Origin: Bolinopsis microptera
Lineage: Eukaryota; Ctenophora; Tentaculata; Lobata; Bolinopsidae
Direction: 5' to 3'
Assembly: GCF_026151205.1 (NCBI RefSeq)
Contig: NC_087077.1
Location: 1,366,001 to 1,430,000, forward strand
Length of the DNA stretch: 64,000 nucleotides
Each line of letters begins with the position of its first letter. Position 1 is the stretch's first letter. The notes under the pieces were generated by a model. That model worked only from the letters and a program-made list of their open reading frames with translations, was not told the DNA's origin and did no database searches. Made by a program: the position numbers and the translations under genes. Of the stretch, positions 6,690 through 20,908 are shown piece after piece.

Positions 6690-7292
6690 GAACGCCACAT
6701 TTCGGGAAAGGAGAGTGCGGTTTCTCGTCCTGAGTGGAAAAGTAACGGTAATGATTAGATTGCAGTGTTGGTATTTAGAGAACGTAATGATTCTATCAGA
6801 ATAGGCCAGGTTGTCTTTCTTTTCTCAGATAAGTGTTACATCTAAGCAACAGCAGGTTTGCAACGAAATTGTTCGATTTCAAAGCAAAACATGACAGTCG
6901 CTTAAAATGTTAGACACTTAAACTGAGATCAAAGTGCAAGGATGTGGTCATCATTTTATCTAAAATCATTCGAAATATCTATAGATTGGAAATTTAACTT
7001 ACAGCTTCGGAAAACACCACAATTCGGGGAAGAAACTTTTAATGTCTCGTCCTGAAGTTGAAAAATGTCGATGAGCGTTAAATCGTGATTCTAGCAATAT
7101 AAGGTTTTTATCATTTTATCAGAATAGGCCAGGTTGTCTTTCTTTTCTCAGATAAGTGTTACATCCAAGCAACAGCAAGTTTGCAACGAAATCGTAAGAT
7201 TTCAAAGCAAAACATTCCTATTGCTCGAGACGTTAGACACTTAAACCAAGATCAAAGTGCAAGGATGTGGTCATCATTTAAAATCATTAAAC
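6690..7292 (-). repeat. Tandem duplication of about 320 bp over the COG5 3' end
   Basis: The segment at about 6690-6978 is repeated at about 7013-7292 with an offset of roughly 322 bases. Long shared runs include the stretch beginning AGAATAGGCCAGGTTG (6797 and 7120) and GTGCAAGGATGTGGTCATCA. The copies differ by substitutions and small indels, so the event is not recent. The right copy reaches into the read-through end of COG5 exon 10. On the minus strand each copy carries a possible acceptor followed by GACGAGA (7051 and 6729), which could serve as alternative COG5 terminal exons. The remaining sequence from 6311 to 6690 is AT-rich with nothing recognised. Confidence 0.75.
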
Positions 7293-10200
7293 TCTCCGAC
7301 GAAAGAGTGATTCCAACTTACAAGTCTGAAGGAGTTGTATTATATTTGGATAGATGGGATCAAAGGAAGGAGCACCAGACTCCCTGATCATATCCTCGTA
7401 CCACTGGATAGTCCCCTGGATCATATCAACCACTTCGTAAGGGTGCGAGTATAACCATGCTACGTATTGGGAGGGAGTCCATCCAGCTACCTGGGAGACA
7501 ACGGATTACTTTTAGTACAAGGTAGGTTATCTTTCTCCAACAAAATATCTCTTTTTAAGGTAAAATAAAATAGGTGATTATATAAACATGAAGGCAGTAG
7601 TGAAAATATGTGAGATTATATAAACGAGTAACTTTTACCAGTTGTCCGTTCTCTTAAATCTACATTATTCTACTCCAATCAGTAGACTGAACTGACACTT
7701 GCCAATCCAGCTCCAAACTGGAGATGTTTTATGTTAAGTGTGAAACGTTTGGATTTGATTAACTAACCTTGTAGGGCGACAAAAGGGCGTCCCCAGCTCT
7801 TGAGAAAAGATGATTCAGCAACATAGGTCTTGGAACATTCCTCACCGTACACATATCCTCAACTGTCAGGAACAGAACAGCTCTGAACGCTCTGAGAACT
7901 TTAAACTGCTGGCTGACACTATGCTCGTCTAGCAGTCCCCCCAGGACTCTCTCCATCTCAGCTATATCAGTCGCTATCTTCATCTTACCCCCGTCACCTA
8001 GAGGTCTGACCACACACAAGTGATGGAGATAGAGGGATATGAGGGAATCTTGGAACTCTTGTAGTTTGGGGAGGATTGCAGATTTGTTAGACAGCTGACT
8101 GAGGTAGTTAGATACCAGGTGGGTTATGGCCTCCTCTACCAGGCCGATGTAAGTTGAACAGCCCGCTATGTCCTGCTTTTCAAACCCATAATCAGTGTCG
8201 TGGATTGTACTGAAGACATGCTCTATCTGGACCCTGAAAATGTTTTTTATTATTACCTAATTATACTAATTATTACCCTGCAAATGTTTTAAAAACTTAA
8301 TTACAAAAACATTGTCGTTCCGCTTTAATTCCTAGCAGGCTGTCTTTGCCTGCTTGGTATTTATAACACGTTCTAGCTTATTATACTCTAAAAGGTATGT
8401 CTGACTGTCAGATTTAGCCAGTCAACGCGCTCGATCGATTAGAGTTTCACAACAACCATGTTGTTATGATAAAAACCAGCGAACTGTAGGAATATAAGAC
8501 GACTCTAACTTGAATGGGTTGAGAAGAGAGTTAACATTCTCTGATATAACGTTCCAGACTTCAGTTCTACCAACAGTGAGATCAGCGGGTACTTCTTCTA
8601 GTTTACTGTGTAATGTACATAACACATTCATCACCTGCACAATTATATTATTGTTAAAATATCAGCGAGTCTTTTTGATTTTCAGTTCGTGTACATAGAA
8701 TTTTAGAATATTGAAATTAAGAAGAAAATAACAAACAACACCAGACGGGGGGAATGCAACGTCAATTAATGTCAATTAATGTCAATTATTGTCAATTAAT
8801 GTCAATTAATGTCAATTAATGTCAATTAATGTCAATTAATGTCAATTAATGTCAATGTCAGTTTTGGGTTTTTATGGAATACTGACATTAATTGACGTTG
8901 CATTCCCCCCCCCCCCCACCAGACGTCGTATAGAGTTAAACAAAACACAAGAAAGTCTGTAATGTTTGAGAGAGAACCCACCTGGATGTTTTTAACGTGG
9001 TACTGAGTTGGAGCGGAGGAGATATCATTCAGCCCGCTTCCGAAATGGACCAGATTCTCGCACTTGTTCAGAATATCCCGGATAGACTTTACTATGTTGT
9101 TCGTACTCAGCTCTGAGAAATTACGAGTGTTAAATTAAATCTATCAATAAAAAGGTTAATTGATACTTATTACTATACAATATATAAATAGGTGAATTTA
9201 ACTTACTTAAAGTATGTGGTTTTATACATGATCTGACGAAGTAGTAAAAAGATACTTTAAGCCTGAAGGTGTGAGATCATATAAACGAGTAACTTAAATT
9301 ACCAGTTATCCGTTCTCTTAAATCTACATTATTCTACTCCAATCAGTAGACTGAACTGACACTTGCCAATCCAGCTCCAAACTGGAGAGTCAGGTTCACT
9401 TACCCACGTTAAGAACTCGAACATAATCTAAAAAATGAGGTGACCATTAAAAAACTTACTTTTGAGTTCCTCGTCTCCTCTGGCGGCAGTTAGTTCGCTG
9501 ACCATGATCCTGACAATACTCTCCATCTCGCTGGTCGAGGGAACTGTTTTACCAGGGAAGGCTATGTTTACCGGGTCTAACAGCCGGTTCAGGGATCGAG
9601 CCAGGTACGTACATTGGAATGGAGTTAGCACTTCTCGTATCTGAGAGAGTTGTATTGTGAGATGGAGAGTTATCATCAAACAATAGATGCAGTGATCAAA
9701 CCGTCGAACATTGTATTATTTTAACTGTTACATTTCACCGAAGCTCACTGACGAATTAGTTTTCATGATAATAATAAGGTTTTGTCAAGTACTCACGTTT
9801 ACATTTGGAAGAGTGACATCCTCCAGCCCCTCCACATCCAATTTGCTGCTAAAATGATTCCACAACGACACAACCAGTCTCAGTGCCTTTGGATACTCTA
9901 AATTGAGAGCCTGTTTAGCTGAACTATTGATATTTCTCAGCTCCTGCTGAAGCGCTGCACTTACAGCTGACACATAAGTTTGAATGGGTGTCACCCCGCA
10001 CTCCTCCAACAGTGTTCTCTGGGTGGACGGGTCACGACGTCTCACTAGTGTCCTGTGGAGCACGTGGATCTGGTTAAACTGGGTGGTTATGTTGTTGCTC
10101 CACTTGTCGAGTGAGGTCCATAGGTTAGCTCTCCATGCTGCTGTGTTTGTCATGCTGGTACCTCCTGAGATTATTTGGTATTCAGATCTGACACCAGTGA

Positions 10201-13200
10201 CATATACCCGGAGAAACCCAGAAACAGGTGAGAAAGGTGAATATAAAATATTTATAAAGTAATCATAAGTAGCGAAAAGGTGTGAGATCATATAAACGAG
10301 AAACTTTTACCAGTTGTCCGTTCTCTTAAATCTACATTATTCTACTCCAATCAGTAGACTGAACTGACACTTGCCAATCCAGCTCCAAACTGGAGAAACA
10401 TGTTCTAAGGGGGGGGGGGTGTCATGTCCGTCTATGTCCGCCTATGTCCTGTCCTTTTTGGATTCTATGAGACAACGGACGTGTTTTTTGGGACATTGGC
10501 GGACACGGACGGACATTGGCGGACTCGGACGGACATTGGCGGACTCGGACGGACATTGGCGGACTCGGACGGACATTGGCGGACCCGGACGGACATTGGC
10601 GGACTTGGATGGACATTGGTGGACATTAGCGGACATTGGTGGACATAAGCGGACAAACATTTTGAGGACTGAAGGGTACTGAAGAGTACTGAAGAGTACT
10701 GAGGAGGATGGCTGAGAAGGATGGCTGAGGAGGATGGCTGAGGAGGATGACTGAGGAGGATGACTGAGGAGGATGACTGAGAGGGAGGTGAAGGATCAGG
10801 AAGACCCAGGAGGAGGAAGACCCAGAAGGAGGACCTAGGAGGGGCTAGGAGGAGGAGGAGGAGAACTGAGGAGGATGACTGAGGAGGAGGAGGACTCAGG
10901 AGGAGGACTTTGGAGGACTGAGAAGGAGGAGGACTGAGGAGGATGGCTGAGGAGGATGGCTGAGGAGGATGACTGAGAGGGAGGAGGAGGAGGAAGAGGA
11001 GGAAGAGGACTGAGGAGGAGGAGGAGAAGGACTGAGGAGGAGAACGAGGACCCAGGAGGAGGAGGACCCAGGAGGAAGAGGACCCAGGAGGAGGAGGACC
11101 CAGGAGGAGGACCCAGGAGGAGGAGGAGGACTGGGGAGGAGGAGAACTGTTGAGGACTGATGAGGAGGACTGAGGACGAGGAGGAGGAGTAGGAGGAGGA
11201 CTGAGGAGGGGAGGAGGAAGAGGACTGGGGAAGATCAGGAAGACCCAGGAGGACCCAGGAGGAGGAGGAGGAGGACCCAGGAGGAGGAGGAGGACTGAGG
11301 AGGACTGAGGAGGAGGACTGACGATGACTGAGAAGGAGGAGGACTGAGGAGTACTGAGGAGGATGGCTGGGGAGGATGGCTGAGGAGGATGACTGAGGAG
11401 GATGACTGAGAGGGAGGAGGAGGAGGACTCAGGAGGAGGACTCAGGAGGAGGACTTAGGAGAAATGAGAAGGAGGACTGAGGAGAACTGAGGAGGAGGAG
11501 GAGGAGGAGGACTGAATAGGAGGAGGAGAAGGAGGGGGACTGGGAGAGGACTGGGGAGGAGGAGGAGGACTGATGAGAAGGATGAGGAGGAGGACCCAGG
11601 AGGAGGAGGAAGAGGAGGAGGATGAAGAGGAGGAGGAGGACCCAGGAGGAGGAGGACTGAGGAGGAGGACTGAGGAGGATGGCTGAGGAGGATGACTGAA
11701 AGGGAAGAGGAGGAGCAGGAGGAGGAGGACTCAGGAGGAGGAGGAGGACTCAGGAGGACTGAGAAGGAGGAGGAGAAGGAGGAGGACTGAATAGGAGGAG
11801 GAGGAGGGGGACTGGGGGAGGACTGAGGAGGAGGATGGAGGACTGAGGAGAAGGATGAGGAGGAGGACTGAGGAGAACTGAGGACTGAGGAGGAAGAGGA
11901 GGAGGATGAAGAGGAGGAGGAGGACCCAGTAGGAGGACCCAGGAGGAGGACTCAGGAGGAGGATGAGGACTGGGGAGGAGAAGGAGGAGAAGGAGGAGTA
12001 GGAGGAGGACTGAGGAGGGGAGGAGGAAGAGGACTGAGGAAGATCAGGAAGACCCAGGGGGAGGAGGAGGAAGAGTAGGAGGAGGAAGCATCTAAATGTT
12101 ATTTCCATTTTTGTCCGTTTTTATCCATTTTTGTCCGTTTTTGTCCGCTCTATTTTTTGTCCGTTTTGAAAATATAGGGTACCGAACGGACAAAAACCAT
12201 GATCCCCCTATAACAGCAAAAATTGAACATTTTATTTAGCAATTTAGGTGTCCATTAATGTCCGCCTATGTCCGCCTATGTCCGTCTATGTCCGCCTATG
12301 TCCGCCTATGTCCGCCTATGTCCGTCTATGTCCGCCTATGTCCGCCTATGTCCGTCTATGTCCGCCTATGTCCGCCTATGTCCTGTCCTTTTTGGATTCT
12401 ATGAGACAAGCGGACATAGACGGACGTGACACCCCCCCCTCTAAGTAAGAATCCTAGCTTACCCGGAGCAGAGCCATTGTAAGATTGTTCGAAACTGCCG
12501 GAGAGAGCTGAAGCCGAGGTCTTGTTGGACAGAGCTGCACTTAGTTTGCAGAGTCTTTGAGACGACTAATTGTAGAGTTCCAATGCTGTTGAAAACTTGC
12601 AGTGCTGTGCTTGTCTGAAGGGAAGCATTGATTTTATAACTTGCTTAGCCAAGAAAGAAGATATTTGGCGGTTGAGATGATGAAACCATGATTTGGTTGA
12701 AGAAACTTAATACTCAACATACTAAACTCTAAACACGAAAGGAGCAGTAGTGAAAAGGTGTGAGATCATATAAACGAGTAACTTATGAATCAGTTACAAG
12801 CTCTCTTAAATCTACATTATTCTACTCCAGTCAGTGGACCGAATTGACACTTGCCGATCCGGCTCCAAACTGGAGAATCATGTTCACTCACACGTATTTT
12901 AAACTTGAAAAAATTAGTACAAACCTGATTTTGGTTGAAGGAGGAAAGTCCCTGAATCAACAACTGCTCAGCTTGAACCTCCATATTAGCTCTAGCTTTT
13001 CTCACCCATTCCAGGTCTTTGTCAATGACCTCTATCCCCTCCAAGTCACCATCACCATACAAATACTGCAGCTCATTAAAAGTTTGTGATGTCTTTGTTA
13101 TCTCCTTGATTCCACCATCAAGTTGCTGCTTCAGCCTTTTCGTGAGATACTGTATACGTGTCACACGTCTCAGTACATCGCATGTTTTCTGTAGTCGACC

Positions 13201-19078: not shown

Positions 19079-20908
19079 CTGAGAAGAGAAAGATCAAACT
19101 CTACGACTCACTAGTAGTATCAGTGCTCCTGTACAACTGCTGCTGCTGGGCCGTACCTCAGCATGTTCTAGAGTCTGTAGTGAAACAAATTTTAGTGAAA
19201 CAAATTTAAAATTTTATCCTTTATTTTACAATCATAATATAATAATATTTATAAGCCTCCGTTTTGAAAGTTTTAAATTTTAATACATTCACATTTCTAT
19301 TTAAAATTCAATTTTATGTACAAGTCAATAACTGGCCGCCAAAGCCGCGCATTCTTGAAAACAGGATTAACTTGATTATAGTTGTACGACTATGTAAATT
19401 TAAAACTATCCGTGGTTTTTTCTTTTAAATAAATAAGTTATAATTTTACCTAAGTCCAAAGCCAGCTTTGAAAAATTTACTATTAAATCATAATATATCG
19501 TCAACTTTAAATATTTACAATGCAACAATTCATTAATCTGTAAACACGCGTACTCCAGCCCATAAACGCATAAATTGTTATGCGGCTCAAGCTGAGCACG
19601 CACGTATTATTTTATACTGTTTGCTTTCTAATAAATATTGTGCCAATGTGTACGTCTAAATTGTAAACGTTCATGTTTTGTGTAAAGTGAATCCAATTGG
19701 GACTAGTGACAAGGATAAGGACCCAAGTGCCTGTACGGCTTTTTCGGACCCCTGTGGACCACTACTCTTGAAATCACTCTACAACATTGAACATCTATAT
19801 CTACTACGTCATTTGGCAATTATTGTCATTAATCTAACTTTCTAATTAATTGCCGAGGGGGAAGAGTAAACGCTTCACATTAAAATTCAATATACAAAAT
19901 TCAAAACCATCAATACGGTATTAAATATTATGGACAAATCTATAGATCTATTTCGTAGTCATATATTCACATGATTTGCTTTATATTATTTTAATACTGT
20001 AATGAAGTACAGTAGGATTTATGTTTCGAGAAAGAAAGGTTGCGGTCAAATTATTAACAAAAGTAAACAAAAGTCCATCAGGGACTCCGTGGAGTCGAAA
20101 AAGGTACACGGCCGCTGTCTGGTGCTGCTAGGCATTTATTGATCAAGATGTTTTATTGTATTGATTTATAATGATTCTATTGTTCGTGACTAATCAAGTT
20201 CTAAGTGGAGGTATAAAGTGCTGCTTAAGATACTTCGTCATCTCATGTCCAGTATAATGATTAAGATAGTATACAATACAGATTCAGTAGTTGACCCATA
20301 CAGTTAAGTCCGTCATAACTCACAATCGTTAAGTCGTCTGTCAATTGTCAAAGTCGTTGTGTGTTTATTCGTTGAGATAGCAGTAAGATAAGATGTTACG
20401 CGCGCGCGCGCGTTTAATCCCGTCGACGTGAGATGTGACAATGAAAACGCCATAGAATTATTATTTTCGCGCGTTACGTAGAGTTTACCAGTGTGTAGAT
20501 GTTGTTCAGAGAAAGCACCTCAAGCGCATCCTACACATCTATTGGCCTAGCTCAATATCTAACAAGGCCCTCTACGCTCGTACCCAGACCAGGCCCCTTT
20601 CCGAGAGAGTGGAAAAGGCAAGGTGGACAATGCTAGGTCATGTTCTACGCAGTGACAACGACACGCCTGCCTACCAGTCTCTGTTATTTGCTACACTAGG
20701 ATGTCAAACGCTAAAGGGACGAGTGGGTAGACACAGGACTAATTTGTATGATATTATTGTGAAAAAGGACCTATTTAAGAGACAAATTTATTTGAAAAAC
20801 GAAGATGATTTTACCAACTTAGTGAACTTAGCAAGAGATAGAGTAGGATGGAAGAGTCTATTTACTTTGAGACATATTGAACGAAGGAGTCATCGAAAGC
20901 GTAAATAG
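19079..20908 (+). pseudogene. LINE reverse-transcriptase C-terminal remnant, interrupted by an insertion
   Basis: Bases 19082-19180 encode MTEKRKIKLYDSLVVSVLLY then CCCWAVPQHVLESV, the typical end of a non-LTR retrotransposon reverse transcriptase (LYNSLVLPVLLYG-like). The reading resumes at about 20497 with DVVQRKHLKRILHIYWP, then RWTMLGHVLRSDND and a C-terminal KDLFKRQIYLKNEDDFTNLV, ending at TAA 20906-20908. Joining across the gap restores the expected order (QHVLESV then DVVQRKHLKRIL). Nothing of the 5' part or the endonuclease domain was seen, so this is a truncated dead copy. The clade cannot be set by eye; RTE, CR1 and Jockey-type elements share this end. Confidence 0.75.
19181..20493. 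mobile_element. 1.3-kb insertion inside the LINE remnant
   Basis: The LINE reading frame stops at 19180 and resumes after 20493. TGTAG is present on both sides (19176-19180 and 20494-20498), as for a 5-base target duplication. The insert is AT-rich, has no convincing ORF, and holds a (CG)n run near 20400. I see no clear terminal inverted repeat, so its class is unknown. Confidence 0.5.

Follow-up and report, generated by a model that had tools for sequence, protein, structure and literature searches.

Four introns of the gene COG5, in a 64,000-nt window of the genome of the ctenophore Bolinopsis microptera (NC_087077.1, positions 1,366,001 to 1,430,000; all unprefixed positions below are those of the window), each contain one H/ACA-like element of 118–121 nt. 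These four elements are very probably paralogues of one box H/ACA small nucleolar RNA (snoRNA) that has spread in cis to four COG5 introns. An earlier sequence-only reading had taken them for a guide RNA family, and this is supported by their boxes, hinge and two-hairpin fold, by their sense position within introns and by their confinement to a single host gene. Together with the fact that no other copy was found, these features fit an H/ACA snoRNA family.

All four elements lie on the minus strand, which is the COG5 sense strand, and each falls entirely within one intron (Table 1). After GT/AG splicing, the COG5 reading frame was unbroken across seven junctions, over a span that starts within the exon preceding intron 3 and takes in the first 300 bases after intron 9. 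A stop occurs only within these final 300 bases, which may run beyond the exon that follows intron 9. Residues 19–218 of the 597-residue spliced translation match Pfam COG5_C (E = 9.4e-30). The intron numbers are those of the sequence-only reading, and splicing here begins at the exon before intron 3. The positions first given for the four elements, their placement in COG5 introns and their sense orientation are thus confirmed by the sequence, the splicing and the COG5_C match. The elements begin 49, 72 and 44 nt from the 5′ splice sites of introns 3, 6 and 9, respectively, within the 44–72 nt that had been reported; for intron 4, with the insert it carries removed, the distance is 31 nt and not the ∼37 nt given earlier.

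Eukaryotic H/ACA RNAs are marked by a hairpin–hinge–hairpin–tail structure, an H box of the form ANANNA and an ACA three nucleotides from the 3′ end, and the modified site is generally 15–16 nt from the H or ACA box (PMC7991803, in part). The hinge of every copy contains AGAATA, which fits the H box, and in every copy an ACA box is followed by three bases to the predicted end, just as had been described from the sequence. The ACA sits one base past the 3′ stem in all four, and near-identity between the copies stops nearby in some of them; the 3′ end itself is a prediction. Folding each copy, a check that the sequence-only reading had proposed, gave a stable two-hairpin structure every time, with z-scores of about −3.7 to −4.7 (−4.12, −3.71, −4.29 and −4.73) and none of 200 shuffles equally stable for any copy. 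The hairpin–hinge–hairpin–tail fold is found in all four, and the consensus fold agrees with it. The fold of the four elements is therefore strongly supported. For three of the four copies, the centroid fold places the 5′ pocket 15 nt from the H box, and in these models the 5′ pocket appears to be the better spaced of the two. The two-hairpin backbone is shared with box H/ACA small Cajal body-specific RNAs (scaRNAs), but the four folded copies show no CAB box UGAG (consensus from PMC7991803, in part) in any apical loop.

The chance expectation for such an anatomy was estimated with a structural descriptor. A match was defined by an ACA, an H box at a fitting distance and two domains each forming a single hairpin, with a lower stem, an open pocket at 13–16 nt and an upper stem. 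The sense strand of the window gave eight matches from 1308 ACA sites, and the four copies rank first among them, with energy sums of −31.4 to −28.6 against −20.0 for the next sense match. The plus strand gave two matches from 1615 ACA sites, the better at −14.7. When the sense strand, and this strand only, was randomised by first-order Markov resampling, a match at least as good as the weakest copy appeared in 1 of 4 and 1 of 60 windows (2/64 in total). Thus, a strand as long as this one would carry one such element by chance in roughly 3% of cases. This value is somewhat optimistic and the descriptor rates favour the copies, because the descriptor was adjusted on the four copies and the threshold was set at the energy of the weakest. 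The four copies are related and hence do not count as four independent draws.

Further copies were sought throughout the 264,652,675-base (264.65 Mb) assembly, which contains gaps. A DNA search with the intron 9 copy found four places, and the intron 3 copy with its flanks found the same four. A 26-base pattern spanning the hinge, allowing up to three mismatches, again returned these four, all on the minus strand, whilst the reversed pattern used as a control gave zero matches in the assembly; two DNA queries and one pattern could overlook strongly diverged copies. Many copies in both orientations would, according to the sequence-only reading, have told against a guide RNA family; what was found are four places, in COG5 only and all in the sense orientation. 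A diverged fifth copy was also sought with a covariance model over the window and six loci retrieved for ribosomal DNA (rDNA). At E up to 10 there were eight matches. Four of these are the known copies, at 142.7–149.9 bits, and the other four were weak. Three of the weak matches overlap the elements but are on the other strand (best 19.5 bits, E = 0.027); the last, at 19378–19473, reached 10.9 bits (E = 2.8).

Identity between the copies declines near the predicted RNA ends. Six intron pairs were compared over four flanking stretches each, and in 21 of the 24 comparisons the flanks were, at the 5% level, no more alike than shuffled ones. The exceptions were the downstream 20 bases of introns 3 and 9 (0.02), the upstream 20 bases of introns 4 and 9 (0.02) and those of introns 3 and 4 (0.04); the upstream flanks of introns 3 and 6 are alike at 14 of 20 positions (0.085). 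The caution that homology runs 10–25 bases beyond the predicted ends was therefore partly right, since it reaches ∼20 bases in some pairs. Such an extension could indicate a dispersed repeat, resembling a short interspersed nuclear element (SINE) or a miniature inverted-repeat transposable element (MITE), that folds well by accident and has several copies in COG5, and other repeats and an insert do occur in the neighbourhood. By eye, however, neither terminal repeats nor a tail were seen at the element edges. We regard a dispersed repeat as very unlikely, because only four places in 264.65 Mb, in one gene and in one orientation, were recovered, with the proviso already given for strongly diverged copies.

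The copies have diverged unequally, with core identities from 85 to 97%. The intron 3 copy differs from the others at 17–20 positions over 125 alignment columns. Of the varying columns, six belong to the 5′ hairpin, 12 lie within 77–100, the 3′ upper stem and loop, and one lies within 101–120, with the rest at the edges. No variation occurs in columns 54–76, which cover the hinge and the 5′ side of the lower stem and pocket of the 3′ hairpin, or in the ACA. The statement that the divergent copy keeps every stem was not exact: in the intron 3 copy, the upper stem of the 5′ hairpin is one pair short and that of the 3′ hairpin two pairs short.

Several results weigh against an H/ACA snoRNA family. 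Covariation, which the sequence-only reading had put forward as a check, was not significant; one of 33 pairs changed on both sides, and this was matched by 130 of 500 shuffles (four sequences). Of the six substitutions that the intron 3 copy carries in its 5′ hairpin, one breaks a pair, and random placement of six substitutions broke no more pairs in 3591 of 20 000 trials. Equally low energies were obtained in 351 and 213 of 2000 random trials (two directions). Four sequences alone do not establish selection on the fold. The pockets are also imperfect. In every copy the minimum-energy fold largely closes the 5′ pocket by pairing, as does the centroid fold of the intron 3 copy. The minimum-energy 3′ hairpin leaves ∼10 nt from the upper stem to the ACA, below the 15–16 nt ruler, and opening a 14-nt 3′ pocket costs 4.0, 5.2, 7.5 and 5.4 kcal/mol across the four copies. 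Rfam 15 gave zero matches in the window at gathering score, and there was no H/ACA family among 11 Rfam matches at E up to 10 in 7400–13100. Finally, no target convincingly common to all four copies emerged from the 18S, U2 and error-ridden or partial 28S sequences that were scanned.

The non-significant covariation and structure-preservation tests suit a different account, in which an intronic segment was copied by DNA recombination or gene conversion without any RNA function, and the identity reflects recent copying; gene conversion within one gene can indeed keep copies similar. That account has to accept that the copied segment happens to be a complete H/ACA anatomy, giving the top four descriptor matches against 2/64 randomised windows, and that hinge, ACA and fold are kept in all copies although divergence ranges from 85% to 97% identity. 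We consider it unlikely. The closed 5′ hairpin, nearly fully paired across 51 nt in the minimum-energy folds, might instead mark the precursor of endogenous small interfering RNAs (endo-siRNAs) or microRNA (miRNA)-like RNAs, and the ctenophore Mnemiopsis is rich in endo-siRNAs (PMC6211395, in part). A short-RNA precursor leaves the hinge, the second hairpin and the ACA unaccounted for; Mnemiopsis is reported to be without miRNAs (PMC3563456 and PMC6211395, both in part), and no miRNA family reached gathering score in the Rfam scan. Such an origin seems highly improbable.

If the four elements are intronic H/ACA snoRNAs, the COG5 pre-mRNA would be transcribed and spliced and its introns debranched. 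Each debranched intron would then be trimmed to the two-hairpin core, shielded by dyskerin (Cbf5), Nop10, Nhp2 and Gar1. The resulting ribonucleoprotein (RNP) would use one or both internal-loop pockets to position a uridine of the target RNA in the dyskerin active site. Intronic H/ACA RNAs are established to work in this way; for the four elements themselves, processing, RNP binding and modification are inferred by analogy.

Target scans were made on the species' own 18S (locus L001, 174–1902) and U2 small nuclear RNA (snRNA; locus L011). For 28S, a conserved-string search found none, and the material scanned was L004, full-length but rich in insertions and deletions (indels), together with the partial L003 and L005. 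No 18S or U2 site fits all four copies well. The best candidate target would be U71 of 18S, which we treat as a lead only. Its pairing with the 3′ pocket could comprise eight pairs on the upstream side of this U and its neighbour and three on the downstream side. Randomised 18S sequences did as well in 2, 2 and 7 of 1000 cases in three of ten settings, and an additional run gave 2 of 300, all uncorrected for the settings tried. The pairing requires the strained 14-nt 3′ pocket, the copies in introns 4, 6 and 9 form the upper stem that it needs only poorly, and helix 6 is self-complementary at U71. This position is not known to be modified in yeast or human. A more specific proposal, in which the four copies serve as a lineage-specific guide for pseudouridylation of U71 in the helix 6 loop and were spread by copying of the processed RNA, strikes us as quite unlikely. 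Copying of a processed RNA would explain why identity stops near the RNA ends and why all copies have the sense orientation.

Other candidate sites were rejected. U911 of 18S (gaaauUcuugga) came top in a scan of 62 pocket settings, with 3 of 200 randomised 18S sequences as good. The 9-bp arm forms only if the lower stem melts, and with the stem kept 334 to 555 of 1000 randomised sequences were as good; it was dropped because it is ordinary once the lower stem is kept. U1449 of 18S in the 5′ pocket was equalled by 174 and 169 of 1000 and did not match the intron 3 copy pocket, and U841, in a 14-nt 5′ pocket, was weak (18 and 31 of 300 as good). U37 of U2 (numbering counted from the U2 sequence), which we take to be a modified site, can form 4 + 4 pairs in the pocket of every copy but that of intron 3; the copies have no CAB box, and the site was dropped. 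A 28S match, aaaacUcuuaa, was located in poor sequence and likewise dropped.

Some of the rDNA loci have peculiarities of their own. In L002 (G000:C5:8333000-8342900) the 18S gene is split by a large insertion of transposon-like appearance, the small-subunit model matching in two pieces (203–2620 and 2694–2971). In L003 and L004 (G000:C5:2295000-2311000) the rDNA shows numerous single-base indels as well as homopolymer runs, and the 18S of L004 is 78% identical to that of L001; parts of this array look as if they had been filled with uncorrected long reads. U2 snRNA has ten assembly matches above the family cut-off on six contigs, eight at 178.6–190.7 bits and two weaker (113.2 and 67).

The surroundings of the elements also include other features. 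The insert in intron 4 adjoins the intron 4 copy and is not part of the H/ACA-like element. Its ends consist of G/C runs followed by TGTCA-type sequence, with arrays of a ∼10-base unit close to both ends and a long GGA/TCC-rich middle. Intron 7 contains, at 8747–8910, a short foldback element of similar build, with 28-base perfectly complementary arms beginning in a G run and a 10-base unit array. Immediately downstream (in the COG5 sense) of the four-element region, two direct 170-base copies, at 6787–6956 and 7110–7279, are 89% alike and stand 323 bases apart.

Table 1. Positions of the H/ACA-like elements, their host introns and the intron 4 insert
Feature	Position	Strand	Remark
H/ACA-like element, intron 3 copy	12756..12875	-	Most divergent (85–88% to the other three)
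H/ACA-like element, intron 4 copy	10278..10395	-	
H/ACA-like element, intron 6 copy	9267..9387	-	
H/ACA-like element, intron 9 copy	7606..7723	-	
COG5 intron 3, host intron	12615..12924	-	310 nt; GT/AG splicing
COG5 intron 4, host intron	10188..12462	-	2275 nt (239 nt without insert); GT/AG splicing
COG5 intron 6, host intron	9113..9459	-	347 nt; GT/AG splicing
COG5 intron 9, host intron	7491..7767	-	277 nt; GT/AG splicing
Intron 4 insert	10409..12439	.	2031 nt; G/C-run inverted ends; TTAGA target-site duplication

The four elements resemble animal box H/ACA snoRNAs in size, in the hairpin–hinge–hairpin–ACA fold, in the ANANNA box, in an ACA followed by three bases up to the predicted end and in the sense intronic location. 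They differ from them in having no Rfam family match and in their pockets, the 5′ one closed at lowest energy and the 3′ one off the ruler. Paralogous snoRNAs within one gene have precedents. In sponge, introns 5 and 6 of the ribosomal protein gene RPL13A hold H/ACA snoRNAs, four snoRNAs are duplicated in the neighbourhood, and cis-duplication into a neighbouring intron had previously been seen in nematodes and platypus (PMC3412847, in part). In chicken, almost all snoRNA paralogues arose by intragenic duplication, and ∼90% of H/ACA snoRNAs are single (PMC2653536, in part). In human, a single host gene holds every expressed member in only 7.3% of H/ACA families (PMC8178906, in part). The same-host arrangement is thus uncommon in human for the H/ACA class, but it is not new. 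As here, the sponge and chicken paralogues or related RNAs occupy different introns of the same gene and are explained by cis-duplication; the present case has four copies and COG5 as the host. A literature search combining COG5, snoRNA and intron returned no named COG5 snoRNA in the portions of text it covered, and a mouse linkage interval that contains Cog5 and nine snoRNAs has none placed in Cog5 (PMC2628916, in part). No ctenophore snoRNA catalogue was found in the literature searched on ctenophores, Mnemiopsis and early animals (including PMC3563456, PMC6211395 and PMC5339648, each in part). The elements are a new family of an old kind.

The finding adds an H/ACA-like family without an Rfam 15 match, from a ctenophore. 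If U71 of 18S were truly the target, the family would direct a lineage-specific rRNA modification; otherwise its value is that of ordinary annotation. Being four copies within the same gene that have diverged unequally, the elements form a small natural series on how an intronic guide RNA multiplies and how its fold is retained.

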